A stretch of 64,000 bases of DNA from Sphaerotilus mobilis (GTDB taxonomy: Bacteria; Pseudomonadota; Gammaproteobacteria; Burkholderiales; Burkholderiaceae_C), in NCBI RefSeq assembly GCF_004216565.1, contig NZ_SGWV01000010.1, positions 1 through 64,000 of the forward strand, written 5' to 3'. This document shows positions 1 to 30,205 of the stretch, in pieces. The notes below the pieces were generated by a model. The model had not been told where the DNA came from. It ran no database searches and was given only the letters and a program-made list of their open reading frames with translations. The position numbers and the translations under genes are program-made. How positions within the stretch are numbered: the stretch's first letter is position 1; every line of letters begins with the position of its first letter.

Positions 1-3000
1 TGGCACTCAGATCCGTGCTGCCCGCCACGGCGTTGCCCGCCGCGTCAAACAGCTGCGTCGTGCCGTCTGTGCCCTTGAGCGTCAGGGCCACGTTGCCGCT
101 GGCCACGTCCGCCGTCGGCGTCACCGTCACCTTGTATTGGTTGGCCACGCCCGCCACCACGCCAACAGACGTCACCGCACCGTTGGTGGCACTGAAGTGC
201 CCCGTGGTCGGCGTGCTGCGCAGGGCCTCGCTGAAGGTCACGTAGAAGTCGATCGCGTCCTTGGTCACACCCGCAACCGTGCCGTCCGTCACCGTGTCCA
301 CCACCGGTGCCACCGTGTCCAGCACGAAGCTGCTCATCGCCACATCGCTGGCGTTGCCCGCCTTGTCGGTGGCGATGACGGTGACGTCGATGGTGCCTTC
401 ACCCAGTTGTGCGCGTTGCGCGGCGCTCAGGAGGATGGGCTGGTTGGCACCGGTGGAGACGAAGCCGTCGATGTCGACGGACTTTGTGGCATCCAGGCGG
501 TTGACCAGACGCACGGTCATGGCCAAGCCAGCCTCGCCGGCCTTGACGGTCAGGACACCGGCGGTTGCTTCGGTTTCTGCTGCGGTGGCCCCGTCGACGA
601 TGTCGGCGGGGACCGTCAGCGTGGCCTGTGTCGGGATGCTGGTGTCAACGGTCCAGGCGATGGCGTTGCTGGCCGCCTCGCTGGTGTTGCCCGCAGCGTC
701 CTTCTGGCGGAACTTGACCTTGCCGGCGTCGTAGGTGATGCCGGTTGGCAAGGAGAAGGTGGCCGTGGTGGCACCCGCGTCCAGCGTCGCCCAGGTGTCG
801 GCCGTCAAGGTGCCGCCGCTGCCCGGTGCGCCATACGCGCCGCCGTTGAGGCTGACCTGCCAGGACGCGCCCGGCTCCAGGCCGATGATGTTGATGACAG
901 CGTCGTTGGTGACGCCATCGGTGGCACCGGTGGCCGTCAGCAGGACCGGGCCCACGCTGTCGGTCTTCAGGCTGATGGTGGGGCGGGCCACGGAGGTGTC
1001 GACCAAGATGTCGGCCTGCGCATTGCTCAAGGCACCGGCCGTGATGCCACCGCTGGTGGTGGTGGCCCTGGCCGTTGCCTTCAAGGTGTAGGTGACGCCG
1101 TCCTGCAGCGTGTTGGCGGCGATGGTGCCGGTCCAGGCGCCGGCGTTGCCGCCGGCGCTGGTGTAGGCGATGTCGGTCACAAGGACGTCAGGGTGCCCTT
1201 CGGCCGTCAGCACGGCGCTGAACGATGCATTGCTGTAGGCCGCCTTTTGCGCGGCAGAGCCCACGATGTTGCCGGTCAGGGTCAGGCCGCCCGAGGCCCC
1301 GTTTTCCAAGGCATTGACGACGTCATCACCGGTCAGCTTCTCGAGCTTCATGTTCGAGTCGGTGGTGGTGAAGTCGTAGACGAAGCTGCCGGACGACGAC
1401 AGGCCGGCGTGGTTGTTGCCCGCCAGATCGCGCAGCACGCCCGCCGCCATGGTGAGCGTGTAGTGGGTCAACTTGGCCAGGTTGTCCGGCGGGGTGATGG
1501 TGACCGAGTTGCCAACGATGCTGACGGCGGCGGTGTTGGTGATGTCGATGACCTGGACGACCTTGCCCTGTTCCGCATCGATCTCGTCCGGTGTCAGGAC
1601 GATGCTGCCGGCGCCGGCCTTGACCGGCTCGGTGAAGGTCAGCGTGATGGAGCCCACGGGCGGCAGTTCGGTGACGCTGCCATCGGCCGGCGAGTAGGCC
1701 GACACGGTCGGCGCGACCGTGTCGATGGCCTGGGCACCGCCCAGGCTGCCCAGATCGGTGACGCTCGCCATCGGGTTGCCCACCGCGTCGGTCAGGCTGC
1801 CAGCGATCAGCGCCAGCGTCAGCGTCGCACCCGCGTTGCTGGCCGGCGGGATGACACGGACCACATAGGTGTTGGGCGTGTCCGAAGCAGCGGTCACGCT
1901 GGCGATGCTGCCGCCGTTGGTGACGCTGAAATTGGCCGCGGTCGGCGCGGTGTTGAGCGCCTCGCTGAAGGTGACGCGGAAGTTGAAAGCCGCAGCGGTC
2001 ACGTCGGGCGTCGTGACGACGCTGTCGGTGATGCCGGTGATGGTGGGCGCGAGGGTGTCGACCCGTTGCGCGCCATTGCTGGTGGCGGCGGTGTCCAGCG
2101 CCGTGACGCCCAGGTCGGCATCGGCGACGGGATTGCCCGCCGCATCGGTCAGGCCCGTGCCGAGAAGTTGCAGGCGCAGCACGGCATCGGCCAGGTCGGC
2201 ATTCGGACGGACCACGACCGTGACTTGCTTCTGGTCGCTGCCAGCGGCATAGGTGGCCGAATCGATGGTGCCGGTGACGGTGTCGGTGCCGGTCTGGACA
2301 ACCTTGAAGTTGGCCGGGCTGATCGCACCGACCAGCGCCTCGCCAAAGGTCACGGTGTAGGTGACGGTGTCCCGGGTGATGGTGGCGGTCTTGTCGTCGG
2401 CGACCTTGTGGGCCGCAGGCGCGACGCGGTCCAGCACGAAGCTGCTCAAGCCGGCGTCGCTGGCGTTGCCCGCCAGGTCGGTGGCCACGGCACTGACCTC
2501 GATCGTGCCGTCGCCCAGCGTGGTTTGGTCCTCAGCACTGAGCACGATGGCCACAGTCGTGCCGGTGGACTCGAAGAACGGCAATTCGACGACCTTGACG
2601 TCGGCCGGGTTCGTGCGGTTGGTGAAGGTCAGGACAACATGGCTGCCGCTTTCGGCCGTCACGGTGCCGAGGCCGGCCATGCGCGAGGCTTCGCCGGCGG
2701 TGGCACCACCGGCCGACACATCAGCGGACAGCGCGACGGCCGGCGCATCCGGCTTGGCCGTGTCGATGCGCCAGGACACGTCGTTGCCGGTGACGTCGCT
2801 CATGTTGAGCGCCGCGTCCTTTTGCCGGACACGGATCCGGCTGGCGGCGTAAGGGCCATCGGTGTTGATCGTGAAGCTGCCGGTGCTGGCGTCGCCAGTG
2901 ACCTGCTCGCCGCTCCAGCTGGTTCCACCGTTGATCGAGTAGTACCAGACGCCGCCGGGCTCCAGGCCTTCGACCAGGACGGTCTTGTCGCCGGTGACCT

Positions 3001-6000
3001 CGTCATCGGTCAGCCGGCCGGTGTCGCTGTTCAGGCGGATGCGGGGCGTATCGACCAGGGTGTCGACGGTGATGTTGTAGGTGACGACCTTGGAGGTCAC
3101 GCCAGTGCGGGTGGCCGTCAGCGTGAGGGTCTTGAGACCTTCGCTCGCGGCCGCACCGGCACCCATCAGGGTGAGTTGATCTCGGCTGAGCGTGGTCGTC
3201 CAGGTCGCGCCGATCTCGGCCGCGACGGAGGTGATCACGATCGGTGCCGTGATGCCGGGCAAGGTCAGCGTGACGATGCTGTCGCGGGCGACGGTGCCGC
3301 GCAACACGACACCGGCCTGCCATTCTTCGCGGTTGACGATGTCGTCGGCGGCGACGGTCTCGAGCACCGGGATGTTGGTGACCGTGGCCACCGCGTCGGC
3401 GAGTTCGGCCAGCGTATCGAGGTTGTCGAGCGTGAGCGCCGGATCTTCGGCGGCGCGTTCGGCAATCGCCGCGATGACTGCGGCCAGGTTGCCGTCCGGT
3501 CCGTCGGTCACACCGTTGATGCCCAGGCCGGTGAAGTCGGCCGGGGTCAGCGCGTAGTCGGGGCTGTCGTTGCCCAGCGCGTTTTCGACGATCTTGCGGG
3601 CCAACTCGGCCAGCGTCTTCAGGTCGGCCAGCGTGTCGACGCGGTCTGCGGCGACGGCGTCGACCAGCGTGCCCAGCAGCTCAACCGCATTGGCGGACTG
3701 CGCGGCGCTCAGGCCCTCGGTGGTGCTCAGGGCGCTGATGTCGGCACCGATGCGGTCGAAGTCCTGTTGGGTCGGCAGGCCGGCCTGACCTGCGTCGTCC
3801 GCATTGCCCAGGCTGCCGTCGGCCGCCTGGAGGATGCGGGCATAGGCGTCGACGATGTCCTGCACTTCCTTCGGGCTGTCGGCCTGTGTGCGGGTGATGG
3901 GCCCGGCGAGCGCGTTCTTGACGGCGGCCAGCGTGGCAGGCAAGCCGCTGCCTGCGGCGGTGTCGCGCACACCCACGATGCCCAGCGCATCGAAGTCGGC
4001 CACGGTCAGCGGATGGACCCGGTTGTCGGCGTTGGTGGCGGCGTACTCGGCAATCCAGTCCAGGGCCTCAACGGCGGCATCGGCGACCGCCAGCAGCTTG
4101 TCGAGCGTCGCGATGTCGGCCGGATCACCGGCGGCGACCGCGCTCAGGACAGCGGCAGCCTGGGCCGGGGTGAGGCCGGCCGGCAGACCCAGCGCGGCCA
4201 GATCTGCAGCGCTCAGGCTGGCCAGTTGCTCGGCGGTCGGCTTGGTGCCCGGCGGCAGCGCGGCCAGGTCCATCAGGGCGTTGACCTTGTCGGCCAGTCC
4301 ACCCAGTCCTTGAGGCGTGTTGACCTGCGCGTCGGTGGCCCGGTCGACCACCTGGTTGAGCAGGCCGAGGTTGGGCGAACCGTCTGTCAGCTTGTCGGCG
4401 GTGGCCGCCGGCAGGCCGAGCGCAACCACGTCGTCGTGCTGGAGCAGAGCGTCCGGGGCGGTGGTGTTGACGGTGCCATCGGCAGCGGCCAGCACCTTGG
4501 CCACGGCCGCACCGATGTCGGCCAGTTGTGCGGGCGTGGCGACCTCGTCAGCACCAACGGTGCTGCTGGCCAGCACCGCGTTGACGGCGGCCAGCACCTC
4601 GGCGGGGGTCGATCCGGCGACGGTGGGCAGTGCGGCACCGATGGCGGCGTAGTCCTCGGCGCTCGGGACCTTGTCGGCATCCAGCGGAGCGGGTTGCGCG
4701 GCGGCGTAGGCGCTGATCTTGTCCTGCGCGGCAATGGCCTTGTCGACCAGGGCCTGCAGACCCGCCGGGGTGGCGATGGACGAGGCGTCCGCATCGGGCA
4801 CGGCGGCGAGTGCAGCCAGCACGGCGGGGAGCTGGGATTGGCTGTCGTCCAGGTCGCCCAGGTCGATGCCCAGCGCGGCGAGTTCGTCCACGGTCGGCGG
4901 CGTGCTGTCGGTGCCGCGGGCGTAGGCCAGCACGTGGTTGACCTTGTCGGCCAGCGCGTCAATGGCGGCTGGCGTGGCGATGTCGGCCACCGGCTTGGCG
5001 TCGATGGCGCCGTTGAGCAGGCTCAGGTTGACCGCATCGGTCGCTGCGGCACCAATGTCCGCGCCGATGTTGGCGTAGTCCTGCGCCAGCGGCTTGCCGT
5101 CGGCAGGTGCCGCCGGAGCCATGGCATCGGCGACACCATTGGCAAGGTTGAGGAGCTTGTCGTAGCTGTCGACCAGGGCCTGCAGGTCGGACGGCAACTT
5201 CGCCAGATCCGCACCGATGCGATCGGTGCCGTCTGCGGCCTGGGTCGACAGTGCCGCGTTGATGGCGGCGAGGTTGGCGGGACCGTCGGCGGTGGCTGCA
5301 TCGCGCACACCGGTGACACCCACGGCCGCGAAGTCGTCCACGCCCGGCGCGCCGTCGGTGACGGGTGCGAGGGCGGCGTTCTCGGCGTAGTCCTCGATCT
5401 TGATCTGGGCCAGCTTGGCGGCTTCGGCGATGGCTTGCAGGTCGTCCAGGCTGCTGATGTCCGCGGGCGAGCCGGCAGCGATGGCCGCCAGCAGAGCCGG
5501 CAGGCTCTCAGGGGTGATGCCGGTCAGGCCGATCTTGGCCAGGTCAGCGGCCCCCAGCACGGGGGCTGGCTGGACGTCGTTGGCGAGGTCGACGACCTTG
5601 TTGACGATGTCGCTGAGTGTCTTGATCTCGTTCGGGCTGTCGACCGAGCCATAGGGCTTGTCCGCGACCACGTCATTGAGCAGGCCGTTGTTGGCCGGCG
5701 CATCGACGATGCCGGTGACACCCAGCGCGGCATAGTCGGCCGCACTCGGCGGGGTCGCCGGGTCGTTGCTCGGATCGGCGTCGGTCATCCGGCGGATCGC
5801 GGCCATGGTGTCGGCCATGGTCTGCAGGTCGTCCAGGCTGTTGACGCCGTCGATCGGGTTGGCCTTGATCGCCGCTTGCACGGCGGCCAGCGTCTCGGGC
5901 GTCAGGCCGGTGACGCCGAGCTTCTCCAGCTCAGCCAGGGTCGGCGGGGTGCTTCCGCCATTGGCGGCCGCGACGACCTTGGCCGCCAGCGCGGCCAGGT

Positions 6001-9000
6001 CACCGATCTTGGCTGGTGTGTTGAGCGTCGTGTGGTCGGCCGGCTGCGCGTCCAGGGCGCCTTGCAGCAGACCCAGCGCGGCGGCACCTGCGGGGGTGGC
6101 GGCATCCGGCACCTTGGCCGGGTCGACACCGATGCGGCGCAACTCGTCGGCGCTGACCGGCACCTCGGCATTGCCCGGCGTGCCGTCGGCCGCGTCGAGC
6201 ACATGCTGGTAGGCGTCAAACACGCCTTGCAGCTTGCTCCGGGTGTCGACATCGGCCCGGTTCAGCGCCTGCACGGCGGCATTGAGCATGTCGACGGTTG
6301 GCGCGCCCTCAGCGCCCAGGCCGCTGACACCGGCGCGTTCGTAGTTGCCCTGATTCGGGACATCCAGCACACCGGTTTCGGGATTGACCTCACCTTCGGC
6401 AAAGCGCTTGATCAGGGCCAGATCCTTGAGCACCTCCTCGATCACCGCATCCAGCTCGCTGCTGGTGTTGACGGCGGCGGCGCTGTTCAAGGCCTTCACG
6501 GCTTCGATGGCGGCCGGCAAGGTGTCTTCATCCAGGGCGCTGACGCCCAGACGGATGAAGTCTTCCAGCGTGATCGTCGGCGTGTCGGTGTTGCCTGCCA
6601 GGGCCAGCATCTTGGCGGCGGATTCGGCGATCAGGTTGATGTCGGCTGGCGTGTCGACGCGGTCACGGCTGGTCGCGTCGATCGCGGTCTGCAGCAGCAG
6701 CAGCGTGTCGGGATCGATCGGCGCGCTCGCACCGAGGCGGTTGATCTCGGCGGCGCTCGGCAGGGCCGGCAGGTTGTCGGCGTGGTTGCGGGTGCCGTCG
6801 GCGAGGTCGAGCACCTTGGCATAGGTGTCGGCGATGGCCTGGACCTTGGCCTGGCTATCCGCTTCGGTTCCGGTCACATTCCCGCTGCCCAGCGCCGCGT
6901 TGACGGCGGCCAGGGTGCCCGGCTGGGCCGGCGTGGAGCCGCTGGCAGGCTGGTCATCCGTGACGCCGGAGACGCCCATGTCGAGGTAGTCCTGCACGCT
7001 CGGCAGGTCGGCCTCGTTGTTGGACTGGGCATAACGCGTGACCTTGGCGAGCGCCAGCACGGCCTTGTCGGCCAGTTCGGCCAGTTCGGCCAGCGACTCC
7101 AGCGCGCTGCCGTCGTCCGGACTGGTGGCGATGGCGGCCAGGATGGCGGCCTGCTGGGCCGGCGTCTTGCCCGTGATGTCGATGCCCAGGGCCAGCAGGT
7201 CGGCGGGAGTGAGGGCCGGCGACACCAGCTTGCCGGCGGCGGTGTCCATCACCTTGTTGACCACGTCGGCCAGGGTTTCGATCTGGGCCGGGGTCGACAC
7301 CGCTGACAGCGGCTTCTTGTCGATGACCGCACCCAGCAGGGCCGCGCCACTGCCGTCCGGGTCGTTGGCGGCGCTGGAGCCGCCCATGTCGACACCCAGG
7401 GCCTCGAAATCGTCGGCGGTGGGCAGTTGGTCGGCAGGGGTGATCGAACCGCTCGGGCCGTTGGCGGCGGCGATCACCTTGTCTGCGGCGGTGACGGCGG
7501 CCTGCAGCGCGGCAGCGTCCTTGGCCGCATCCGGCCCGATGGCCTTCAGCGCGGCGTTGAGCAGCGGCAGGTTGTTGGTGGTGACGTCCTCGACACCGAT
7601 GGCGGCGTACTGCTCCTTGGTCGGCGCAGCACCGGTCGGCGTGGCGCCCGCCAGAACGGCGTTGTAGGCGTTGACGATGGCCGCGATCTCGGCCGGCGAG
7701 TTGGCGTTTTCAGCAGCGATGGCCGGCGTGGCGAGCGCGCTGTTGATGGCGGCGATGTTGGCGTCGGTGACGGTGGGCCGGCCGGCGGTGTCGACCATGC
7801 CGATCGCCGCGAAGTCCGCCGGCGTCGGAACCTTGGTCGGGTCGGTGTTGTCCGGGTTCGCGGCGTAGGCCGCGATCTTGGCCTGCGCGGTGACGGCCGC
7901 ATTGAACAGAGCCTGCAACTCGCCCACGGTGTCGACCAGACCCAGGTCGGTCTTGGCCTGGACGGCGGCCAGACCGGCGGCGACACCGGCGTTGTCGACG
8001 GTCGATCCGAGGTTCAGGCCCAGTTGCTGCAGCTGGGCCTTGCTGATGGGCAGGGCATCGGCCGAGGGCAGGGTCTGACCGGGCTTGTTGGCCAGACCCA
8101 GCAGGGTCTGGGCCAGCGTGTTGAGGGCCTCGATGGCCGCCGGGCTGGCCACGCTCAGGTGGTCGGCCGGCTGGGCGTCGATGGCCGATTGCAGCAGCCG
8201 CAGCGGGTGTGCGTTGTTGGCCGTGGCGCCGAGGTTGACACCCAGCGCGATCAGGTCGTTCTGGGAAGGCAAGGCCGCGCCGGCGTTGTCCCGGTTGCCA
8301 TCGGCCGCCTGCAGCACACGGGCATAGGCGTCGAGGATGGCTTGGACCTCGTTGGGCGAGTCGACCTGTTCACCACCGACGGCGGCGGTGCGCAGCACCG
8401 CGCCGAGCATGTCGGCGGCCATGGGCTCGGCCTGCAGTGCCAGCGGGATGACCAGGCCGAGCGCGGCGTAGTCCGCCAGGCTGGGTTGCTCACCGGCACC
8501 CGTCTCGGCATAGGCCAGGATGCGCTCGTAGGCATCGACGGCCTCGGCCACCTTGGTGTTGAGCTTGGACAGGGTGTTGACGTCGCTGCCATCGTCCGCG
8601 CTGACACGAATGGCGTAGAGCGCGGCCTGCGCGGCACCGGGCTTGGTCGTTTCCAGCGTGGCCAGCGTGTTGCCGTCGACGTCGCGCACGCCCAGGGCGT
8701 CGAGCTCGGCGATCGTGACCTTCGGGGCGGTGCTGGTGTCGTTGTTGGGAATGGCAGCCTGCGCCATGACCTTGTTGACCAGCGCACCCAGCGTGTCGAT
8801 CTCGGCCGGCTTGTCGACCGCGCCGTCTTCGAGGTTGCCGATGACGCTGTTGAGCAAGCTCAGCACGTTCGCGTCGGCCTTGCCAGCATTGGCCCCGGTG
8901 GTGGGCAGGCCGGTGGTCAGCTTCGGAACCGCCACGCCGATGCGGGTGTAGTCGAGCTGCGTCGGGTTGTCGGCCGTGTCGGCATCGGGCGCGCTGCCGT

Positions 9001-17533: not shown

Positions 17534-17542
17534 GAGACGCGG

Positions 17543-17589
17543 TGCAGATGCAGATGCAGATGCAGATGCAGATGCAGATGCAGATGCAG
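17543..17589. repeat. Hexanucleotide simple-sequence repeat (TGCAGA)7+
   Basis: Seven exact copies of TGCAGA plus five bases of an eighth occupy the intergenic gap, ending 8 bp past the stop codon of the Ig-like protein and 109 bp before the start of the colossal protein. It lies outside both frames. Such repeats change copy number by slippage and could alter spacing in the leader of the colossal gene; a 6-bp unit could not shift a reading frame if translated. Confidence 0.9.
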
Positions 17590-17596
17590 CGGCGGC

Positions 17597-20500: not shown

Positions 20501-23500
20501 ACCGGCCAGCGGCTCTTCGTCGAAGGTCAGCGTCAGCTGTGTCGACATGCCCGGCTCCAGCACGAAGACATCCGACGTGATGGTCAGGCCGGGGCCGGTA
20601 CGGTCCAGCGTGATGCCGCCGACAGGCGCGCCAGCCACGACGCTGGGCGAGCCGCTCTTACCGGCATAGAGCTGATAGGCCATCAGGTGGCTGTAGCTGC
20701 CTTCGGTGGGAGCGGCCAGACTCAGTTGCAGGGGCAGGTCCCTGCGGACAACCGGCAGGTCACCCTTCTCGCTGCCAAGCCGGACATCGTCGCCGTCGAA
20801 GACGCCGTTGACATTGCGGTCCTCGAAGACCACCACGCGGGCGCCCGCCACATAGCTGGAACTGATGACGTCGAACTCGACCTGACCGGCGTTGCCGTAG
20901 GACTGCCCGGCCGCCAGGGAGATCGACAGCGGACCCGGCGCGCTCGGGTTGATGCGCACGGCCTTGGCGACTGCGGAGGCCTCACCGGCCAACACGCCGG
21001 TTGAACTCGCCTGGACCACCCGTAGGTTGTCGTAAACGCCTTCGGACAGCGCATTCGCGCTGGAGACGCTGACCGAGTGGAAGTTCGCAGAAATGGTGGA
21101 GCGCCCCAGCTCGCGGTCGACCTCTGGATCAAAAACCGAGTTCTTGTTGACGTCCTGGAACAAGATGGCGGTGTTGCCGTTGTCGCCGCCCTTGAAGTTG
21201 AAGGTCGGCGTGGCGATGTAGGTGTAGAAGTCGCGCGGCGCCAGTCCTGCGCCAGCCACACTGGCCTGGTCCATGACCGCGTCGAACTCCAGGTCCGTGA
21301 GCACGCCGGGCTGGTTCGTGGCAATGACCAGCGCGCGGTTCTCGACCGAGCCGCGCACCTGGTAGGCCGTGCTGACGTTGCCTGCGGCATCGATCTGCAC
21401 CATCTTGAGCGAGCCGTCATAGCTGCCATCGGCCAGCACCTGGCCCGAGGCCAGGGCCAACAGACCTTGCACGTCGGCGGCACCAGCTTCACCGAGGACG
21501 ACCCGGCCGAGTTCGACACCTTCTTGCAGCTTGCCGGCACCGGTCGGGTCCCGGAACAGCACGACGGTGGCACCGCCCTCGCCGATCACACGGAATGACG
21601 GCGTGTTGTCACCGGTCTTGCCATCGCCGATCAGCCCGGTGTCGGAACCGGCATCGAGCACACCCAGGCTCAGCACCGACGGCGCGAGGGTGTCGATGCG
21701 CAGCGGGGACGCCACAGCGGCAGGCACCGCCGCAGACGCAAGGTCGACGGCGTTGCCAGCCACGTCGGTCAGGCGGGCGCTGCCCAAGGACAGCGCGGCA
21801 GCATCCAGCGACAGACCGGCGCTGTTGTCGGTGCTGCCAACGGTGTATTCGAAGGTCAGGACCTTGCTGCCAGAACCGTCGACCAGAGCGGCCTGAACGG
21901 TCTGGGTAGGGCTCAGTCGCACCGTCACGCTGGGAGCGATCGCCGCCGCGTCACCCGCGACGATCACATGCACCGGACGTTCGAAGGTCGCCGTGATCAG
22001 GACCTTGCTGCCAACCGCCAGATAGCCGGCATCGGGCGCGGCCGTGGCAATGGCCAGGATCGGCGCGGCAACGGGCTGACTCACGATCTGCAGCGGTTGC
22101 AAGGCGCGCGCGGGGCTGTCATTGCCGGCCGCATCCGTCGTGAGCGCCGTCAGCTTGTAGACGCCGTCCGCCAGCGGGCGATCCGGGGTGGTCAATGGCA
22201 GATCCAGGTAGCCCTGGCCGTCCGCCAGGTTGAGACCGGGCACGTTGGTTGCGCTGGAGGGCCGGGTCAGAACGCCTCGACCTTGCACGGTTTCGCCAGC
22301 GTCCAGTCGACCGTTGTCGTTGGCGTCAACGAAGACCACGATCTGGGCCCCCGTTTCGCCGACCAGGCGCACGGTGGGTGTTGTCTGCCGCGTGATGCCG
22401 TCGAGCGGGTCAACACCGGTGTCGTCACCCGCCAGCAAAGCAGCTTCCGGCTGCACGGGCGCGCGGTTGTCGATGTTCAGGGCGAGCGCGGCCGATGGCG
22501 GACTTTCGTTGCCAGCGTCATCGAAGGCGGTTGCGGTCAGCACATGCACCGTGCCCGCCGCTGCCGTGTTGGCCAAGGGCCGGGTGGTCAGCACACCACG
22601 GCCGTTCTCGTCGAGCACGACACTGCCAACCTTGGCACCGAGCGCATCGGTCAGGTCGACCTGGGACAGGGGCTCGCCCCTGACATCAAAGCTCACGCTG
22701 ACCACGTTCGTGATCCGGTCACCGGCCGTGCCACTGTCGGAATCGCCCTGCAGGGTGAAGGTCGGCGACACGGGCGGCAAGGCGTCGACGCCCTGCCCTG
22801 TGGCGGTCAGCGTGGTGTCGACCAGCCGGCTGAAGGCACTGGTCAGCGCGCCACCGGACACGTCGCGAATGGAGGTGCTGCCACCGCTGGCGACCAATGC
22901 ATCACCCACCACCGAGATGTCGCCTTGCAGGGCGGACGACTTGGTGACGAGGTAGCCAAAGACGAGCACGTTGCTGCCGTTGGCGGCCGCCGGATCGACC
23001 AGATGGGCCTCGATGGTTTGCTCGCCGACCTGGACCTTGAGGCGCGGGGCAAAGGTCTGAACGTCGTTGCTGCCGTTGGTGGAGACGTTCCAGGCCACCT
23101 TGCTCGGGAGCACGACCTTGATCAGGATGGTCTCGCCGATGTGGTATTCCGTCGCGCCGGCCGTGGCGGGCGCGCTGACGATGGCCACCGGCGCATGGTC
23201 GACGGCAACGTCCACCGGAGGCAGCACGAAGTTGGGCTTCATGCCAGGGCCGGGTTCGATGGTCAGCTTGAAGCGGCTGATGTCGGTGGCGGCGCGACCC
23301 GGCTCCAACAGCGTGTTGCCTGCAGCATCCATGGCGAAACCGACCAACGGCGCGTCATCCAGGCCGACCACGTTGTCCAGGAAAACGGGCACCTTGTGGA
23401 GCAAGGGCAGCGGGGTCGACGTCGGGTCGAAGTCAGTCGGCAGGGTGTAGACGACCGTGTAGTCCTGAGCCTTGCCCGTCACGCCCTCGGGATGGAAGCG

Positions 23501-25123
23501 CAGGGTGTAGGTGTCACCGGCCCGTGCGCCTTTGGCCGGCGTGATGGCGACGGTCAGTCCGTCGGTGAGGCTGGTGTAGGCGATGACACCGGCTTCATCG
23601 ACCTGTTCTCCGATGTTGGACGTCGGGTTGCTGCGACGCCGCAGGCTGACGCTCGCGAGATTGGCCTGGATGGCCGCCGAAATGTCGGCCGTCGCGAAGT
23701 AGACATCGGAGACGGTCTGGAGCAGCGAACGGGCGGCGGCATCGAGCGCAACGCCGCTGCCCACGGGATCCGCATCTTGCAGATGAGTGACGAGGTAGTC
23801 GATCACGCCGTCGATGCCAGGCGACTCCTGCCGGGTGCCCATCATCGACAGGATGGCAAGCGCTTTGCCATAGGCATCGGGCGACGACGTCCAGTCGGCA
23901 TTGACCGGCTTGGGCTGTGCACTCAGGACCAATGTCGAAATGGTGCCCGCCGTGTCCTTGAACAGGTCGGCGACCGATCGGTGAATCGCGGCAATCGTCT
24001 CGTCCGCTCGGCTGGCATCGGCGAACAGTTCCGGGTGGGACGCCATCAAACGGTCGATGTGGCGTGCCGCGACGGTCGACAGCGGCGTGATCGCCAGGGG
24101 CAACGTCGTCCCGCTGATGTCGGCCAGTTCATTGGAAGGAACCGGTGCCTTGCTGATCCATGCCGACAACACGGTGGAACCCAGGTCGGTGTCGTAGCCA
24201 ACTGTCGGATTGGTCTCGTCGTCGAAGTTCGGTGCCGCGCCGTTGGCGTCATGCACCTCGATCTTCAGGCGCTCTCCCGCCGCGAGCTTGCCGAATTGCG
24301 TCACGGAGAACCTCAGCTCACCGGACCTCGACCCGACCACCGGAATGACATCGGCCGGATCGATCTCCATGCGCTCTCCGGCAGCGTCAACCACCACGAT
24401 GCGTAGGCCGGTCATCTCGCCAGCCATGGGCTGGACGCGGAAAGCGTAGATGTCCGGCGAGGTCGGTGCCGGCGCAGGCGCCGGCGCCGGCGACTTGGCC
24501 GCTGCAGCCAGACCCAGCACACCCACGGCCGCAGCCCCCAGCAGCAGCGGTGTGCTTTCGTACCAGCGCGAGTCGTCATCCGCCGTGTCGATCAAGGTCG
24601 CGCCCGGCGCCGGGGCAGGCTGTGGGCGCGAGACCGGCCGGGGCGCGGACGGCGGCAAGGCCTGACGCAGCAGGTCTTCGCCCACGGTGGACGGCGCATC
24701 CGATGCGACGGAGGACTTGGGGCCGACCGTCGCGGCCTGCGCCAGCAGCGTGACGCCGTCCGTGGCCGATGCATCCACCGACTCACCCGCCGCAGACGCC
24801 ACCCGAATCGAGGCCTCATCCACCCACCGCTCGACGACATCGACCGACGCATCCGCCACGGTCACGGCGGATTCATCGTCATGCATCGCCAGGTCGCGGC
24901 TCTCATCCTCAGCCAAGCGACGACGGCGGCGTTGCCCTGCGGCGCGCCCTGTTGCGCTGTCGGTCGCGGTGCCCGCCACCGGATCCACAGCGGCATCCCG
25001 TTGACCTGCCGGCACATGGCCTGCAGGCCGTGAGGACAGTCCCGCTGGCACGGCCGGATCTTGCAAACGTGCGGGCTCTTGCAAACGTGCGGGCGACAGG
25101 GACGGGTTGGCGTTCATGGGCAT
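17597..25123 (-). CDS. Large Ig/cadherin-like repeat surface protein, 2,508 aa
   Basis: Two in-frame ATGs are possible (25123, 25117), neither with a strong ribosome site. The first ~185 residues are low-complexity Ala/Pro/Arg sequence with an RRRRR patch near 65-69. One hydrophobic segment follows at about 191-209, then an Ala-Pro linker. The bulk is Ig-like and Bap-type domains ('AGTVHVLTATAFDDAGNESP' style). Four cadherin/VCBS-like domains with 'VSDGDPDGSA'-type motifs lie at about 18.3-19.9 kb. Near the C-terminus there is a dockerin/EF-hand-like loop (DVNRDGLIDASDRT), then a tail with 'GYWTSTPGNEG' recalling DUF1566/Lcl_C domains, ending FRIETVI. The layout (disordered N-terminus, single hydrophobic segment, repeats) parallels the colossal protein 163 bp downstream. 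Probably a secreted or surface-anchored partner; function inferred from architecture only. Confidence 0.8.
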   Translation of the reverse strand: MPMNANPSLSPARLQEPARLQDPAVPAGLSSRPAGHVPAGQRDAAVDPVAGTATDSATGRAAGQRRRRRLAEDESRDLAMHDDESAVTVADASVDVVERWVDEASIRVASAAGESVDASATDGVTLLAQAATVGPKSSVASDAPSTVGEDLLRQALPPSAPRPVSRPQPAPAPGATLIDTADDDSRWYESTPLLLGAAAVGVLGLAAAAKSPAPAPAPAPTSPDIYAFRVQPMAGEMTGLRIVVVDAAGERMEIDPADVIPVVGSRSGELRFSVTQFGKLAAGERLKIEVHDANGAAPNFDDETNPTVGYDTDLGSTVLSAWISKAPVPSNELADISGTTLPLAITPLSTVAARHIDRLMASHPELFADASRADETIAAIHRSVADLFKDTAGTISTLVLSAQPKPVNADWTSSPDAYGKALAILSMMGTRQESPGIDGVIDYLVTHLQDADPVGSGVALDAAARSLLQTVSDVYFATADISAAIQANLASVSLRRRSNPTSNIGEQVDEAGVIAYTSLTDGLTVAITPAKGARAGDTYTLRFHPEGVTGKAQDYTVVYTLPTDFDPTSTPLPLLHKVPVFLDNVVGLDDAPLVGFAMDAAGNTLLEPGRAATDISRFKLTIEPGPGMKPNFVLPPVDVAVDHAPVAIVSAPATAGATEYHIGETILIKVVLPSKVAWNVSTNGSNDVQTFAPRLKVQVGEQTIEAHLVDPAAANGSNVLVFGYLVTKSSALQGDISVVGDALVASGGSTSIRDVSGGALTSAFSRLVDTTLTATGQGVDALPPVSPTFTLQGDSDSGTAGDRITNVVSVSFDVRGEPLSQVDLTDALGAKVGSVVLDENGRGVLTTRPLANTAAAGTVHVLTATAFDDAGNESPPSAALALNIDNRAPVQPEAALLAGDDTGVDPLDGITRQTTPTVRLVGETGAQIVVFVDANDNGRLDAGETVQGRGVLTRPSSATNVPGLNLADGQGYLDLPLTTPDRPLADGVYKLTALTTDAAGNDSPARALQPLQIVSQPVAAPILAIATAAPDAGYLAVGSKVLITATFERPVHVIVAGDAAAIAPSVTVRLSPTQTVQAALVDGSGSKVLTFEYTVGSTDNSAGLSLDAAALSLGSARLTDVAGNAVDLASAAVPAAVASPLRIDTLAPSVLSLGVLDAGSDTGLIGDGKTGDNTPSFRVIGEGGATVVLFRDPTGAGKLQEGVELGRVVLGEAGAADVQGLLALASGQVLADGSYDGSLKMVQIDAAGNVSTAYQVRGSVENRALVIATNQPGVLTDLEFDAVMDQASVAGAGLAPRDFYTYIATPTFNFKGGDNGNTAILFQDVNKNSVFDPEVDRELGRSTISANFHSVSVSSANALSEGVYDNLRVVQASSTGVLAGEASAVAKAVRINPSAPGPLSISLAAGQSYGNAGQVEFDVISSSYVAGARVVVFEDRNVNGVFDGDDVRLGSEKGDLPVVRRDLPLQLSLAAPTEGSYSHLMAYQLYAGKSGSPSVVAGAPVGGITLDRTGPGLTITSDVFVLEPGMSTQLTLTFDEEPLAGSFNVDLLVRSDDRSHLTMGELSAIVPVQQGGRSVWQATATLSSDAIGVSTFTLDAPAGAYRDRFGNPSQASHFELSGVADATPPVVAITTDVNKVGLAGREAATQALLTFRMSEPVTDFDLADLSVYGGSSIGTIGNLRKVDGDPLAWTAVFTPAASIVAEARISVRNGAVFDQGGNANVASSVRLSVDTAAAPTLAAPDAWGAAGGLRVQEDARLPLRATFASSGATALSVWDTDAASSDSAFERVDLSVGNGRLRVDLAGGVQVNANDSATMTLTGTMAQVNAALATLSYIGASNTHGDDRLVVQAYDRTGKSDRKEWVISVQAVNDAPVVTVPANLASTHVAGSASPLVGIGLDDVDSATVTTVVSVFNGTLSTETVSASVVLTGQGSAELSLTGALADVRAALAGLRYTADGDYHALHPGVTTDTVRVTTTDVEGLVVSRSYTVSVTPRPVVAPTITLSDALSNGGISTSEDIASTPLGAGQITVSDGDPDGSASALVSLTLSVDQGTLSVRHAGNPLSGSVLTLNGNALALTTALATLTYADQPHAHGERTLSLVARDGDGHETVATVALRVASVGDAPVVVLPAAPANLETGKTSALAGIRVSDVDVGPGALSGITVSVQHGALQVTVPTASTSGESVPVVTGLGSNTLTLSGTQTQMQALLDTLTYTPDDGVLPRPTAQVGSDLLTVTASDGDVTTIDPTRTLALSVLVPNKPATGDIAVQGLARVGSNLTIDNTLKDPDGIAGGSVAGMAYTWLRDGAAIGPEATGRTYTVTEADLHHQIAVQVRFNDLRGEATTRTSDVTAAVESDLALGLAQAIRYADNSSTPVSSAQLILSRHGDGYDDYLLDVNRDGLIDASDRTAYISSLSVNHMLTLADGRSARLLSSEEWAVLAASSGVLPADWPMPGVDGAGYWTSTPGNEGTHLVHLGTSSLTTPHVVPDDGGLVNRVAYFNAFRIETVI
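25059..25094 (-). repeat. Perfect 18-bp tandem duplication in the N-terminal coding region
   Basis: Two identical 18-bp units (TCTTGCAAACGTGCGGGC on the plus strand) encode the duplicated peptide ARLQEP/ARLQDP just after the start of the Ig-like protein. Because 18 is a multiple of three, copy change would alter length without frameshift. Confidence 0.85.
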
Positions 25124-25241
25124 GAAAGGTCGAAGCGAAACAGGGGCGTCGGGGCACGACGGACGAACGATGGCCGGACAAGTCCAGCCACGATCAGAAG
25201 CAACAAGAAGAGGCGCAGGACATGCGCCAGACGCAGAGCGC

Positions 25242-26828
25242 TCAGCGACCTTGTGACGAGCGGCGCGTCAGGTCGTCGGCCAAGGCATCGAGCTTGCGAT
25301 TCACATCGGACAGCTCGTACTTGGTCGCCAAGGACTCCGCCTGTGCGGACGCATCCAAACGAGCAACCATCTCGACGAGCTGCGGTTGAATGCGACCCGC
25401 CAGATCGCGCATGCCGCCATCCAGGGTTTGCAACGTCAGATTGGTCTCATGAGCATGCGCACCGACCTGGCCAATCAGGACGGTCTGGTCGCGCAGTTCG
25501 CGGCTGGATTCGGCCATTGCTGCGACGACGCTGGCGAGGTCACGCTGCAGACCCATGCGCAACTCGGCATGCATCTGGGTCACGTGGTCACGCGCCTGGG
25601 CTGCCGCATCGACCAAGGTGCCACGCAAGCCGGCCAGTTCGCGAACGGCCTGGCTGTTGTGGTCGGCGATGAACTTCGCTTGCAGGTTGATGTCGGCCAG
25701 AGAGCCCGCACTGGTCTGCGCGGCCGCCGCCAGCATGTTCTGCGCGACCTGCAGGTCGTCGAACTTGCGCGCCACGGTCTCCAGGCGCTGGGCGACGCTG
25801 GCGGCCACCTTCTCGACCTGGGCACGGGTCTCGTCTGAACCCAGTCGTTTCTCGGCCAAGGCAGACATGGTCTGCATCGCCTCGCTGGCCAGCCGCATCT
25901 TGGACGACGCAAGCAGGATGGCCTCGGTCTGCTTGGAGAGATCCTGGCGCAGGCCGGTGATGGCCTCAATCTGCAGACGGGCCAGACGCTCGTCCGTGCC
26001 TGAGCCACCCACATCGACCCGTGAACCGCCGCCGGTCACGGCTTCGGCCACGGCGTGATAGGTTTCCTCGGCCTCGGCCACGGCGCCAGATTGCAGCCGG
26101 CGCAGCGCGAGCATCTGCAGTCCGTTCACCATCGAGCCACCGAGACCCAGCAGCGAGGCCACGAACGCCTCACCCATACCCGCGAGCGGACCACTCATTT
26201 GAGTGAAGAACCGCGTCATCGTCGCAGCGGAATCGCCCTCGCCGGTGACGGCGATGATGCTGATCAGGCTCGCCACTTCCTTGAGCGTGACGATCAGACC
26301 CAGGAAGGTGCCGAACAGACCCAGACCGATGAGGGTGTTGGCGATGTGGCCCGGCAGCACCAGCCGACGCGCGCTGGCCTGCTGGTAGACGCGAAAGCGA
26401 GCAAGAACTGAGGCGCGATCCTCGCCACCCCGACCCTCTCGATCCGCACGCAGCGGTCCGAACAGGTCAACGACATCCGCGTCTGCACCGGACTGCGAGA
26501 GCAACTGGCCCAGCGCGCTGCGCTGAATGTCGAGTGGCGCACCCCGCTTGCCAGCCATGCCACCCCGGATCGCGGCGATCACGCCGGATTCACGGCCGAA
26601 ACGGATGGCCTGGTAGATCGCCAGCACCTGACCGACGACGGTGACCAGCAAGATGAAGATCGCGAAGCGGGGATTGGATGAGCTGTTGATGAGCTGCACG
26701 ATGCTGTCGTACAGGGCAACGTTGCCCAGCACGTAGGCCACCGTGATGCCGACACAGGCCAGCAACGCCCATGGGCGCCGGACCCCTGGCGCGATGGATG
26801 GACGGTTCCGGACGTTGACATGACTCAT
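25242..26828 (-). CDS. MotA/TolQ/ExbB-like proton-channel family protein with long cytoplasmic tail
   Basis: Start chosen at the ATG at 26828 (MSHVNVRN) because AGGGAGC lies just upstream; an upstream extension to 26912 lacks support. 528 residues. Two hydrophobic segments near the N-terminus ('WALLACVGITVAYVLGNVAL' and 'FAIFILLVTVVGQVLAIYQA') are followed by the family core: 'NTLIGLGLFGTFLGLIVTL' and 'GMGEAFVASLLGLGGSMVNG', matching TM3/TM4 of MotA/ExbB/TolQ. Residues about 300-528 form a long Ala/Leu/Gln-rich probable coiled coil. MotA-type proteins with such tails include ZorA, and SiiB is a MotA-like partner of the giant adhesin SiiE. Placed directly upstream of two giant surface proteins, an SiiB-like energising role is the best inference. 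No MotB/OmpA-like partner is seen in the window, and no other Zorya genes. Confidence 0.75.
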   Translation of the reverse strand: MSHVNVRNRPSIAPGVRRPWALLACVGITVAYVLGNVALYDSIVQLINSSSNPRFAIFILLVTVVGQVLAIYQAIRFGRESGVIAAIRGGMAGKRGAPLDIQRSALGQLLSQSGADADVVDLFGPLRADREGRGGEDRASVLARFRVYQQASARRLVLPGHIANTLIGLGLFGTFLGLIVTLKEVASLISIIAVTGEGDSAATMTRFFTQMSGPLAGMGEAFVASLLGLGGSMVNGLQMLALRRLQSGAVAEAEETYHAVAEAVTGGGSRVDVGGSGTDERLARLQIEAITGLRQDLSKQTEAILLASSKMRLASEAMQTMSALAEKRLGSDETRAQVEKVAASVAQRLETVARKFDDLQVAQNMLAAAAQTSAGSLADINLQAKFIADHNSQAVRELAGLRGTLVDAAAQARDHVTQMHAELRMGLQRDLASVVAAMAESSRELRDQTVLIGQVGAHAHETNLTLQTLDGGMRDLAGRIQPQLVEMVARLDASAQAESLATKYELSDVNRKLDALADDLTRRSSQGR

Positions 26829-26903
26829 GGATGCTCCCTGACAGGATGGAATGGCGGATCGAGGCGACGGGTTGATACGGCTTGCGTGGGGCGCACCCCA
26901 ACA

Positions 26904-26984
26904 CCAAGCCAACTGATAAAAGTGTCCGGAAGTCGGCTTGGCGGACCAATGACCGATAAGAGCTAAGTAGGTGGTCCGACCTAC
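26904..26984. promoter_or_regulatory. Two inverted repeats upstream of the MotA-like gene
   Basis: In the 197-bp gap before the MotA-like gene, arms CCAAGCCAAC (26904-26913) and GTCGGCTTGG (26932-26941) pair at nine of ten positions around an AT-rich centre. A second dyad, GTAGGT-N6-ACCTAC, lies at 26967-26984. The gap is the AT-richest of the locus and probably carries a promoter; the dyads may be operators or the terminator of the EAL-HDOD gene. Confidence 0.4.
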
Positions 26985-27025
26985 AAGAACTTGTCATTCG
27001 CGGTCGCCAGCCTTCTGGCGGTGGG

Positions 27026-28561
27026 TCAAGTCCGGCGCCGCGTTGTGGGTGGCGCGGAAGCGAGACTCCTGACCGATGCACCGGTCGATCGCGCAGGCCT
27101 CTGGCGTACCGCCAGGTCAGCGACCGACTGCAGCACGCTGCCGTTCTGGCTGCGTTCTTTCGCCCAGAGGTGCGCCTCTTGGTAGATCGATCGCAGGGCC
27201 GTGGCGAGGCCAGGCATGGCGGCCAGCGGGCCAGGCAGCCAGCCGGTTGGCTGGCGGTACTGGCCTTGTGCGAACTCCAGCACCGCACCGAGCAGACCCT
27301 TGCGATCGCGCATCGCCCGTTCAAGCCGGGCGCCAGCCCGCACACCCAGGTCAGGATCGCGGTAGGCGATGCCCAGCGTCGTCCGGTAGTGGTCCAGAAG
27401 GCCAAGCAGGAAGGCCTCTTCGGCCAGCGCCGGCTCGGTCGGTGAGACACGCCGGGCCAGCACCTTCATCAGACGAGCCTGAGCCAGGCCGGCGTAAGTC
27501 CAGGACTTGTCGATCACCCCGGCGTCGGCCACCTGCAGCACCGACAGCCAGGCCTGCAGCACCGGGCGCGGCAGGTCAGCAACGAGGTCGGCCAGCACGT
27601 TCGGTCGATCCTCCGTGCCAGCTCCGGCGCCGTCCTGATCGGCGAGCTGCCAGATACGCAGCGCCGTCGCCGGATCCATGGCCAGTGCCGTGGCAACCGA
27701 CTCGTTGGACGCGCCATGCTGCAGCAGCAGGCGGGTCCGGCGCAGCGCCAGCGCCGAGGTGGCAGGCAGGCCGGGGGCCAAGATGACATCAGGCCGGGCG
27801 ATGGCATGGCCCTGCACCAAGTCGGCGCCCAGCACGCGCGCGGCCGCCAGGTCGCCGGCGGTCTCCACCTTCTCGGCCAGAACTTGCACACCGTGGCTGT
27901 GCGCGCGCGCCATCATCAGCGGCAGGTCGACCGGCCGAACTGTCTGCCAATCGATCTTGATGACCTCGACCAGGTCGATCAAGGCCCAGCGGCTGTCGTC
28001 CAGCGTGTCGATGTCGTCGAGCGCGAAGCGCATGCCCCGCTGGCGCAGGTCCTGCACCCGCTGGCGGACGTCCGCCGTGGCGGGGATCGTTTCCAGCAGC
28101 TCGACGACGCCCCAGGCCGGGGTGATCGCCTCGACCAAGGGGCTCATCAAGGTCTCGCGGTCGACGTTGACGAAGAAGCTCAGGCCCCGGGCGCGGCGCG
28201 GCAGGCCCAGATCCAGCACGGCAGTCGCCAGCACCTCGCAGGTGGCGTGCAGGCCGTTGACGATGCCGCCGGCGTCCAGCCGCCCGGCATCGCGGTAGAG
28301 CAGCTCATAGCCACGCGCGCGGCCGTCGACATCGACGATGGCCTGCAAGCCGACCCGGCGGGCAACACGCTCCGGCGCAGCGGGCTGATGCGGTGCGGCC
28401 TGCGGCTGCAGTGGCACGCCGGCCTGATGCAGCAGACGCTGGACGCCCGGGTCGCGCCGCGCAGAGGACCCCGATCGCAAGGCCCAGGACAACACGTTCG
28501 ACGGCGGCGCGACATCGTCAGGCTCGAAGGGACGGGTGGGCATCGGCAAGGTGGTGTGCAT
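27026..28561 (-). CDS. EAL-HDOD (YuxH-type) signalling protein, 511 aa
   Basis: After a ~70-residue variable leader, the EAL-like half begins 'VDVDGRARGYELLYRD', the hallmark of YuxH-family proteins in which EAL is replaced by a YELLYR-type motif. It continues with 'FVNVDRETL', 'VVELLETIPA', 'RFALDDIDTLDDSRW', 'VEVIKIDW' and 'AEKVET', the order of EAL-domain strands, but with key metal ligands altered, so c-di-GMP hydrolysis is unlikely. The second half (about 285-480) is HDOD: 'HGASNESVATALAMDPATAL' with a long helical bundle. These proteins act as signalling adaptors linked to motility, type IV pili or adhesion. It sits 72 bp downstream of a paralogue and upstream of the adhesin genes, suggesting it sets their output. 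Confidence 0.8.
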   Translation of the reverse strand: MHTTLPMPTRPFEPDDVAPPSNVLSWALRSGSSARRDPGVQRLLHQAGVPLQPQAAPHQPAAPERVARRVGLQAIVDVDGRARGYELLYRDAGRLDAGGIVNGLHATCEVLATAVLDLGLPRRARGLSFFVNVDRETLMSPLVEAITPAWGVVELLETIPATADVRQRVQDLRQRGMRFALDDIDTLDDSRWALIDLVEVIKIDWQTVRPVDLPLMMARAHSHGVQVLAEKVETAGDLAAARVLGADLVQGHAIARPDVILAPGLPATSALALRRTRLLLQHGASNESVATALAMDPATALRIWQLADQDGAGAGTEDRPNVLADLVADLPRPVLQAWLSVLQVADAGVIDKSWTYAGLAQARLMKVLARRVSPTEPALAEEAFLLGLLDHYRTTLGIAYRDPDLGVRAGARLERAMRDRKGLLGAVLEFAQGQYRQPTGWLPGPLAAMPGLATALRSIYQEAHLWAKERSQNGSVLQSVADLAVRQRPARSTGASVRSLASAPPTTRRRT

Positions 28562-28633
28562 GGCGTGGCGGCTCGCAGTGGCCGTTCTGACGGGTATCGA
28601 AGATGAGGGGCGCGACCACCGGTCGCAGGCCGC

Positions 28634-30148
28634 TCAGGCGCGCGAATCGACCGGCAAACCAGGGTGGCCGGCAACGGACAGGCTGCGTTCGCGAACCTGC
28701 CGGCCCGCCTCGTCGTACAGCTCGACGATCCCGTTGGCGGGCGCCATGGCTTGGCCGTTGAACATCAAGCGCAGGCCGATGTCGAGCACCGCGCCGAGCA
28801 GGCACTGGCGGTGCATCCAGGCGTCCTCGATGGCGGGACACATCAGCGGTGTGGCGAGGTGGCCGACCATGCGCGCGGGCAGGGTGTGCCGGAAGTGCGC
28901 CACCATGCCCAGCAGGGCCGCCTGTCGATGCAGTTCGTGTCGATCGGGTGCCAGCCGCTCGGACAGCAGCCGCATGAACAGCGAGAGGTGGGCCGCCGCC
29001 TCGCACCAGGCGGGCCGCAGGGCGGCCGCATGGTCGCGGGCCTCGAAATACAGCAGCTCCAGCCAGATCGGCCAGGTCGGTCCGCGCAGGCGGGACACCA
29101 GATCCAGGGTCGATTCGGGTCGGCTGATGGCACCGAACAGGCCATCGCAGGCCAGGATCAGCAGTCGCAGCAGCAAGGCCGGGTCCCGGTCGACCAAGGC
29201 GGCCAGTTCGACGTCATCGGCACCACGCAGCAGCCGCTCGCGCAGGTGATGCAGGCCGTTGGCGTCGCACGCTGGCAGCTGGTCAACCGTCCAGGTGACC
29301 GGGGCGGACAGGAGGGGCCCGGAATAGGCATGCACGCCCAGCGTGCGGTACTCGCGGAAGTCATCGAGCCGGTCGATGCCGCGCAGGTGCACCTGCTGGC
29401 CGATGAGCTCGGGCCAGAGGCCCAGCAGGGCGGTGCGTTCGTGGGTCCCGATGTCGAGGTGGGCCCACTGCACCTGATGGGTCAGGGTCTGCAGCCGCGC
29501 GGATGAAGAAGCGCCATTGCACGACAGCGACAGCACCAAGCCGCGGGCGCGCAGCTCTTTCAGACGCTCGCGAATGAGGGGCGTGGGCGGCAGGTGGGAG
29601 GGCAGCTGGACAACGGCCCAGCGGGGGTCGAGCACCTCGACCAGCGAGGTCAGCAGCAGCGCCTCGGAGACTTCGATCAGGACGGGGTGGGCCCCCGCCA
29701 CGGAGCGCAGGCCGAGGGCCAGCACGGTATGGCAAAGGTTGTCGATCCACTCGTTCAGCCCACCGCCACCCCGAACGCCTGACCCGCCACGCAGCGGCAG
29801 GTCCACCACCGGGAGCAGCTGGACCGCCACCTCATGACCCAGCATGTTGACGACCTTGGTCGTGCGGACCGCGACGCGCGGCAGGTTCAGGTGGGTGGTG
29901 GCAGCGGGCAGCGGCGTGCTGGACGCTGCGACCGCAGCGGACGTCTCCAGTGGGGGCGAGGTCGCCAGAGCCGCGTCGAGATCGACCATCAGGCCCTCGG
30001 CCTGGGGCTTCGGCGAGGCTGCGGGCTGGAGCACCAACGGCGCAGCCTGTGACGGACCGGCGCGCTTGGCCAACGGATGGGCGTTGTCGCCGAGGGCCGC
30101 AGGCTGGCGGATCGGCGCGTCAGCGCGTGACAGGGGGGCGGTGGGCAT
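28634..30148 (-). CDS. Second, more degenerate EAL-HDOD-like protein, 504 aa
   Basis: ATG at 30148 is preceded by GAGGAG at good spacing. The first ~90 residues are Ala/Pro-rich and disordered. The remainder aligns in layout with the adjacent EAL-HDOD protein: 'HPVLIEVSEALLLTSLVEVL' parallels 'FVNVDRETLMSPLVEAI', 'AVVQLPSHLPPTPLIRERLK' parallels the ELLET helix, and 'VHAYSGPLLSAP' parallels the GHAIARP segment. The YELLYR and DDID motifs are gone, so the EAL half is catalytically dead. HDOD-like helices follow ('LAALVDRDPALLLRLLILA', 'LLGMVAHFRHTLPARMVG'). Likely arose by duplication and diverged into a sensor or scaffold. It is first in the run of same-strand genes leading to the giant proteins. 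Confidence 0.65.
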   Translation of the reverse strand: MPTAPLSRADAPIRQPAALGDNAHPLAKRAGPSQAAPLVLQPAASPKPQAEGLMVDLDAALATSPPLETSAAVAASSTPLPAATTHLNLPRVAVRTTKVVNMLGHEVAVQLLPVVDLPLRGGSGVRGGGGLNEWIDNLCHTVLALGLRSVAGAHPVLIEVSEALLLTSLVEVLDPRWAVVQLPSHLPPTPLIRERLKELRARGLVLSLSCNGASSSARLQTLTHQVQWAHLDIGTHERTALLGLWPELIGQQVHLRGIDRLDDFREYRTLGVHAYSGPLLSAPVTWTVDQLPACDANGLHHLRERLLRGADDVELAALVDRDPALLLRLLILACDGLFGAISRPESTLDLVSRLRGPTWPIWLELLYFEARDHAAALRPAWCEAAAHLSLFMRLLSERLAPDRHELHRQAALLGMVAHFRHTLPARMVGHLATPLMCPAIEDAWMHRQCLLGAVLDIGLRLMFNGQAMAPANGIVELYDEAGRQVRERSLSVAGHPGLPVDSRA

Positions 30149-30205
30149 GGGGCGGACTCCTCATGTCGACCCGGCATGGCACAGGGTCGATCAACAGTCC
30201 GCTCA

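Follow-up and report, generated by a model that had tools for sequence, protein, structure and literature searches.

Type I secretion systems (T1SSs) that are linked to a MotAB-like pair of membrane proteins and to a giant adhesin are already known from Salmonella. There, SiiA and SiiB together constitute a proton channel; losing them spares secretion but impairs invasion, and uncoupling reduces the surface retention of the adhesin (PMC6272769 and PMC12607715, in the portions of text available). Those portions describe SiiAB-type control of a type I adhesin in Salmonella and leave its mechanism open, and in the open-access PMC text consulted (subscription papers lying outside this scope) we found no MotAB-type T1SS outside Salmonella. 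Here we analyse the opening 64,000 nucleotides of contig C4 of the freshwater bacterium Sphaerotilus mobilis (G000:C4:1-64000; NZ_SGWV01000010.1; hereafter the window), part of a 4.65-Mb assembly in 15 contigs, in which five minus-strand open reading frames (ORFs; Table 1) encode two EAL-HDOD-like proteins (EAL1 and EAL2), a MotA-like predicted inner-membrane protein and two giant surface proteins (giant1 and giant2). From what the sequences show, namely the component genes, how they are ordered and conserved, and a T1SS linkage in relatives, we consider it probable that the locus combines a SiiAB-type proton channel with a T1SS to control the retention of giant adhesins, with cyclic di-GMP (c-di-GMP) proteins added.

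The five ORFs are separated by 72, 197, 118 and 162 bases, in order from EAL1 to giant2, and all are present in identical order in Leptothrix discophora CCM 2812 (G002), which belongs to the same genus; the two genomes are together called Leptothrix below. An earlier sequence-only reading had linked these as five same-strand genes, and each of them was recovered as such. That reading also expected a MotB/OmpA-like partner and a type I exporter just left of the window. The window begins at base 1 of C4, so this region corresponds to the end of another contig, C1, where the MotB-like gene was found and, over 60 kb, the exporter was not. C1 and C4 are very probably adjacent, because the end of one and the start of the other share an exact overlap and the sequence on either side is collinear with a single L. 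discophora contig; we have kept them unjoined.

The partner was detected with a profile of MotB-like genes from other MotA–T1SS loci, which matched a single ORF in the window genome (E 1.1e-9). This ORF lies 1.6 kb beyond the 3′ end of giant2, and 35 bases separate it from a large lipoprotein-like gene further downstream; L. discophora carries it too. A MotB-like protein with a membrane aspartate is therefore present for the locus, tied to the window by the 67-base overlap and by synteny. It has a single hydrophobic stretch (residues 17–53) starting with WPGYVD, a motif invariant in all three sequences compared, the Asp of which is a candidate proton-binding residue. Its N-terminal part gives weak NCBIfam peptidoglycan-binding matches, and relatives match OmpA-type models weakly. 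Against the PDB, the MotB-like profile returned two chains, one of them from ZorAB entries at E 1.2; SiiA was not among the matches at E ≤ 10. Between giant2 and this gene, C1:1162189-1163575 is partly conserved with L. discophora in translated comparison and holds small ORFs.

The MotA-like protein has hydrophobic segments at residues 19–40, 52–77 and 162–196. Its AlphaFold model (five sequences) is all-helical with a long tail and has a predicted local distance difference test (pLDDT) score of 56; Foldseek ranked ExbB best for this model, with ZorA, TolQ and PomA lower, all at E > 0.1. The sequence-only reading had proposed a MotA/ExbB-like channel with a coiled-coil tail. The MotA-like character and a predicted helical tail hold, but Pfam MotA_ExbB does not match the protein, although the family has seven matches in the genome, none of them on C4; a Herbaspirillum relative matches it at E 0.0043, below the cut-off. 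When the MotA-like set was compared directly, by profile, with a MotA_ExbB paralogue from the window genome, the match was weak (probability 5.8). A search of the PDB with the MotA profile was set aside as a guide: coiled-coil proteins made up most of its 15 chains at E ≤ 10, and ZorA came in at E 0.29.

Zorya ZorAB, which we take to comprise a MotA-like subunit with a long tail and a MotB-like subunit as at this locus, raises the question of whether the pair is a phage-defence motor that adjoins adhesin genes by chance. In a defence library the best matches are indeed to ZorA (E 2.5e-4 for the window protein, 1.3e-7 for Herbaspirillum aquaticum and 1.3e-8 for genome G060), ZorA is among the Foldseek matches, and the MotB-like proteins of two other loci match ZorB (2.2e-4 and 3.9e-4). 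The same library, however, gives no ZorB match for the Leptothrix or H. aquaticum MotB-like proteins, and the pair accompanies adhesin-like ORFs and T1SS genes in the loci examined; we regard a defence role as highly improbable.

The linkage to secretion genes is drawn from relatives. One scan of the genome contig collection returned five loci, in L. discophora and in four Herbaspirillum genomes (one of them metagenome-assembled). In Herbaspirillum sp. ASV7 the order is TolC, EAL, ATP-binding cassette (ABC) exporter, membrane fusion protein (MFP), MotA, giant1, a 945-residue ORF, giant2 (7250 residues) and MotB, with giant1 split into two overlapping ORFs by an apparent frameshift; H. aquaticum has a TPR-like ORF, TolC, EAL, ABC, MFP, MotA, giant1 and MotB. 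The Herbaspirillum huttiense locus looks decayed, and a genome-wide search found no MotB of the locus type, the best match (E 1.3e-8) belonging to a second MotAB–T1SS cluster. One H. huttiense ORF (L044:9395-12094) joins an MFP start and a MotA-like middle (both by hidden Markov model, HMM) to a giant1-like end (by eye). The second, compact Herbaspirillum cluster (L161:8125-19998 and L162:8142-20000) runs TolC, MotB, MFP, MotA, ABC and an adhesin-like ORF. Labels given by eye throughout are TPR, lipoprotein, pseudopilin and cadherin-like, together with some EAL and giant1-like ORFs of ASV7 and H. huttiense.

Three surveys, each scoring at most three candidates per genome so that the tallies are lower bounds, extended this comparison. 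At family level, 12 of 399 genomes matched the MotA profile, the window genome included. In the twelve further family loci, from 11 genomes and with no part in model building, a MotB-like gene is always present, and an MFP or ABC gene (E < 1e-50) accompanies it in 11; the remaining one, L141, shows no T1SS genes in 16.5 kb and has a 1532-residue adhesin-like ORF between MotA and MotB. At order level, matches occurred in 4 of 399 genomes, again including the window genome, with MotB, MFP and ABC genes present in G060, G107 and G214. At class level, 25 of 369 genomes matched, including the window genome, and 20 of the 24 other loci were fetched: 16 have a MotB-like gene and none has an MFP or ABC gene, some of these loci ending at contig edges, which lowers the chance of T1SS genes showing. 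A wider T1SS linkage based on the class-level matches was rejected, these being generic MotA/OmpA pairs. One locus, L122:1672-6295 (G479), carries a MotA-like gene (535 residues) followed by a pair of MotB-like genes and one TolC-like gene, with pseudopilin-like ORFs alongside.

Such generic pairs, common in the class in the 20 loci examined and free of secretion genes, would suit a general envelope proton channel with an OmpA-type anchor, unrelated to secretion and placed among adhesin genes by chance. We find this very unlikely for the present locus, given T1SS genes at 11 of the 12 family loci versus none of the 20 generic ones, and MotA and MotB genes that flank the giant genes in both Leptothrix and Herbaspirillum. 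In a midpoint-rooted tree of 46 rows and 101 core columns, with long branches flagged and T1SS labels assigned beforehand (L141 and the two Leptothrix rows bear the T1SS label without linked T1SS genes), a branch with support 100/99 separates the 21 generic pairs from all other rows, and the 20 T1SS-linked rows sit between these pairs and five paralogues of the window genome. Left out were one own paralogue in the wrong frame, one without an ORF, the fused H. huttiense ORF and L161/L162. The third-helix GTF motif is present in all 20 T1SS-linked and all 21 generic rows; the T1SS-linked proteins are 440–567 residues long and the generic ones 238–436, with exceptions of 535 and 630. Family f11 of the same order holds one of each kind, a generic MotA/OmpA pair in G045 and a T1SS-linked pair in G214, which argues against T1SS linkage being purely an effect of kinship.

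Immunoglobulin (Ig)-like repeats occur in both giants, the presumed cargo, and RTX motifs with a type I-like C terminus in giant2 only. The complete L. discophora giant2 has 9672 residues, the last 1540 of which contain Ig-like, laminin-G-like and RTX domains (Pfam); the window-genome protein has four RTX-like motifs and a C terminus similar to that of L. discophora. To our knowledge, a 9672-residue giant2 is among the largest bacterial proteins. The Leptothrix and ASV7 giant1 proteins are similar at the N terminus (E 1e-10) and the C terminus (E 8e-8). The N-terminal prefix domain of giant2 also occurs in adhesins of two other MotAB–T1SS loci (profile probability 90, E 1.6e-6), and in ASV7 a 130-residue ORF right after MotB (G1159:C397:75767-76159) resembles a lone prefix domain (36% identity, E 4e-14).

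Most of giant2 within the window is an array of helical repeats. By HMM, the window genome and L. discophora each have 53 copies and a further protein, on contig C5, has 10, these being training proteins and so not independent; the repeat alignment used 43 of the 53 single units. The 48 repeats of ASV7 giant2 were found with a Leptothrix-only model and are thus independent. Across the repeats the Leptothrix pair is 68–83% identical per 250-residue block. A 3200-residue stretch of the region matched no Pfam or NCBIfam family at E ≤ 0.01; a single unit is predicted to form a compact helical domain with three main helices (pLDDT 88), and none of its 12 Foldseek matches in the PDB reached E ≤ 0.001. 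With 53, 53 and 48 copies in three genomes, the repeat represents a new structural unit within a predicted 9672-residue protein and might contribute to attachment or to the structure of the sheath. In the relative Leptothrix cholodnii, calcium is required for sheath formation (PMC8264430, in the text available). In L. discophora a 2627-residue protein (L015:7323-15206) is encoded between giant2 and MotB; it combines a repeat array with a metalloprotease region of serralysin-like sequence (E 1.2e-20, short of the family cut-off), and no counterpart was seen at the equivalent position in the window genome.

The sequence-only reading placed an exporter near the 3′ end of the colossal gene and regarded a lack of secretion genes there as telling against the system. 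None was found there in the window genome, over the window and 60 kb of C1, yet the homologous Herbaspirillum genes do adjoin secretion genes. Among seven type I-like ABC matches in the genome, the best, on C5, is 46% identical to the Herbaspirillum protein, has MFP and TolC genes alongside and adjoins an 897-residue protein with 10 giant2-type repeats, so that C5 is the likeliest candidate and may serve giant1 and giant2. A separate T1SS cluster at C1:75714-87658 (ABC 75714-77924, MFP 77921-79432, a 1074-residue ORF and TolC 85778-87658) is probably an ordinary Lap-type system and contains, at C1:84978-85313, the sole LapG-family match in the genome. This match and the EAL proteins within the locus would fit a LapA-type arrangement in which a LapG-like protease and LapD set retention and MotAB is minor; we think that unlikely, since LapG sits with its own T1SS on C1, more than 1 Mb along that contig from the locus.

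Of the two 'dead EAL-HDOD adaptors' proposed from the sequence, EAL1 is degenerate, but EAL2 keeps the EAL motif residues. Its DD, K, E and Q columns align to solved EAL domains, and it retains the earlier E, N and E at what we take to be the motif positions; EAL1 has none of these residues in the alignment. Pfam at E ≤ 1 found HDOD in neither protein and EAL in EAL2 only; an EAL-then-HDOD arrangement is supported by hhalign of four proteins against P0023 (probability 88.5, E 2.7e-6, 264 columns), an EAL-HDOD-type protein of the window genome that itself matches Pfam HDOD. Full-length relatives of EAL1 and EAL2 occur in 2 of the 13 genomes of the genus, exactly those with the MotA-like gene. 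The EAL-HDOD pair is outside the conserved core of the locus, because full-length copies are restricted to those two genomes and in H. aquaticum one plain EAL protein stands in its place. Co-occurrence of all five genes beyond the window genome was borne out, but it is rare; the set that recurs is MotA, one or more giants, MotB and the T1SS.

The idea of a giant-adhesin system with a MotA-like channel gains support from the MotB partner on C1 and from the secretion genes beside the Herbaspirillum homologues. Retention control is its likeliest role because the parts match the Salmonella SiiAB system. By that analogy, both giant adhesins would leave through the T1SS, and the MotA-like and MotB-like proteins would make up a proton channel in the inner membrane, one of the Mot/Tol/Exb/Zor/Sii kind, that uses the proton motive force to set how long the adhesins are held in the envelope, not to drive them outwards. 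The motor would be fixed to peptidoglycan through MotB, which has a single membrane helix and a C-terminal region resembling OmpA; the long cytoplasmic helical tail of MotA may link the motor either to the exporter or to some regulator in the cytoplasm; and EAL2, with its motifs intact, together with the degenerate EAL1, may feed the c-di-GMP level into expression or retention. A motor that itself drives export by pulling the giant chain out would be consistent with the very long substrates, the long MotA tail and the conserved MotA Thr and MotB Asp positions. It is nevertheless quite unlikely, since deletion of siiA or siiB in Salmonella leaves SiiE secretion into the medium unchanged (PMC12607715, in the text available).

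Several observations weigh against retention control by a T1SS-coupled motor. A scan of the window and of 60 kb at the C1 end gave distant ABC matches but no T1SS exporter; the C5 exporter was picked from seven ABC matches, with surroundings examined for two of the seven, and its 897-residue neighbour lacks the giant2 prefix (probability 0.1), having only the repeats in common. Leptothrix giant1 has no RTX-like motif, and its export route is taken from homologues. The MotA-like model is of low confidence, as are its Foldseek matches. The Herbaspirillum, G060, G107 and G214 sequences were used in the models and are not independent, and the 20 T1SS-linked rows need two changes on the tree and do not appear as one clade. 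This last point, together with the two-of-seven coverage of the exporter candidates, slightly lowers our confidence. A wider proposal, possible but advanced tentatively, is a Burkholderiales class of proton-motor-coupled T1SS in which a long-tailed MotA and a peptidoglycan-anchored MotB would act as a motor on the exporter or on a parked adhesin N terminus, reeling or holding helical-repeat chains of 7000–10000 residues in response to the proton motive force and to c-di-GMP, with Salmonella SiiAB as one branch.

Table 1. Features of the giant-adhesin locus. Positions refer to the window (contig C4) unless prefixed with C1; aa, amino acids.
Feature	Position	Strand	Length	Remark
EAL1, EAL-HDOD-like	28634..30148	-	504 aa	Catalytic EAL motifs lost
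EAL2, EAL-HDOD-like (P0002)	27026..28561	-	511 aa	EAL matched by Pfam at E 3.3e-14; motif residues retained
MotA/ZorA-like predicted inner-membrane protein (P0022)	25242..26912	-	528 aa from likelier start	ATG at 26828 is the likelier start
Long helical (coiled-coil-like) tail of MotA-like protein, predicted	25245..25997	-		Residues ~278-528; low-confidence model
giant1, Ig-repeat surface protein	17597..25123	-	2508 aa	Pfam
giant1 hydrophobic helix	24491..24556	-		Residues 190-211; after VGEDLLRQA stretch that recurs in Herbaspirillum giant1
giant1 C-terminal part	17600..18019	-	140 aa	Resembles C terminus of Herbaspirillum ASV7 giant1
giant2, colossal surface protein	2..17434	-	first 5811 aa	Open at contig end
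giant2 N-terminal prefix domain	17090..17434	-		Common to ASV7 giant2: 42% over 190 columns, E 1.7e-38
53 helical repeats of giant2	3377..14818	-	~72 aa each	giant2 residues 873-4686
giant2 Ig-like repeat region	2..3376	-		Big_5 above cut-off; Big_12 and Big_13 weak
Contig overlap	1..67	.	67 bases	Exact bases common to C1 end and C4 start
giant2 remainder	C1:1163627-1170214		2195 aa	Found by search with L. discophora giant2 C terminus
MotB-like gene	C1:1161229-1162068		276-aa protein (279-aa ORF)	Profile match at C1:1161334-1162029

The locus seems to be evolving faster than its surroundings, judged by DNA identity to L. discophora of 70–77% within it (window 305-29715) versus 86–88% in the flank (30204-53253). 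About 16 kb of that flank (37285-53253) is inverted relative to L. discophora and adjoins a collinear stretch (30204-37027). Of 19 flanking ORFs tested (30330-63780), 9 match Pfam and look ordinary, as Gfo/Idh/MocA oxidoreductase, LacI-type regulator, pyridine nucleotide-disulphide reductase, TPP enzyme, PfkB-DUF2090, ABC ATPase, fatty acid desaturase, GH3 and hybrid histidine kinase. The other ten, which gave no Pfam match at E 1e-5, may have been called in the wrong frame.

Motor-linked holding of giant adhesins thus seems to exist in environmental bacteria too, and an environmental genus with both motor halves, together with 11 family genomes in which MotA and MotB lie by adhesin-like and mostly also T1SS genes, provides material to test retention against export. 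Among described systems, LapA/LapD/LapG is alike in having a giant type I secreted adhesin and c-di-GMP-linked proteins nearby, and differs in that LapG is here elsewhere with another exporter and a MotAB pair stands at the locus. Likeness to Zorya ZorAB lies in the long-tailed MotA-like subunit, the MotB-like subunit and weak profile similarity; the neighbours here are adhesin-like and T1SS genes. Compact MotAB–T1SS clusters, in the family (for example L140, L143, L144, L150 and L151) and in Herbaspirillum (L161 and L162), have related MotA and MotB genes with adjacent MFP, ABC and RTX-type adhesin ORFs; they differ in their mostly smaller RTX-type ORFs, compact order and other MotA subclades (L161 and L162 being outside the tree). 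Salmonella pathogenicity island 4 (SPI-4), with SiiABCDEF, is alike in its parts list: MotB-like and MotA-like proteins, a TolC-type channel, an adaptor, an ABC exporter and a giant Ig-repeat adhesin. The layout of SiiA, with one N-terminal transmembrane helix, a linker and a peptidoglycan-binding-type periplasmic part (PMC12607715, in the text available), resembles that of the MotB-like protein here. The locus departs from SPI-4 in that its exporter is unlinked in the window genome, it encodes a second giant, helical repeats span 3800 residues, EAL-HDOD genes are added, and MotA and MotB genes flank the giants. What is new relative to these systems is the two-giant form with 48–53 helical repeats, flanked by MotA and MotB, accompanied by an EAL-HDOD pair and recurring in Burkholderiales.

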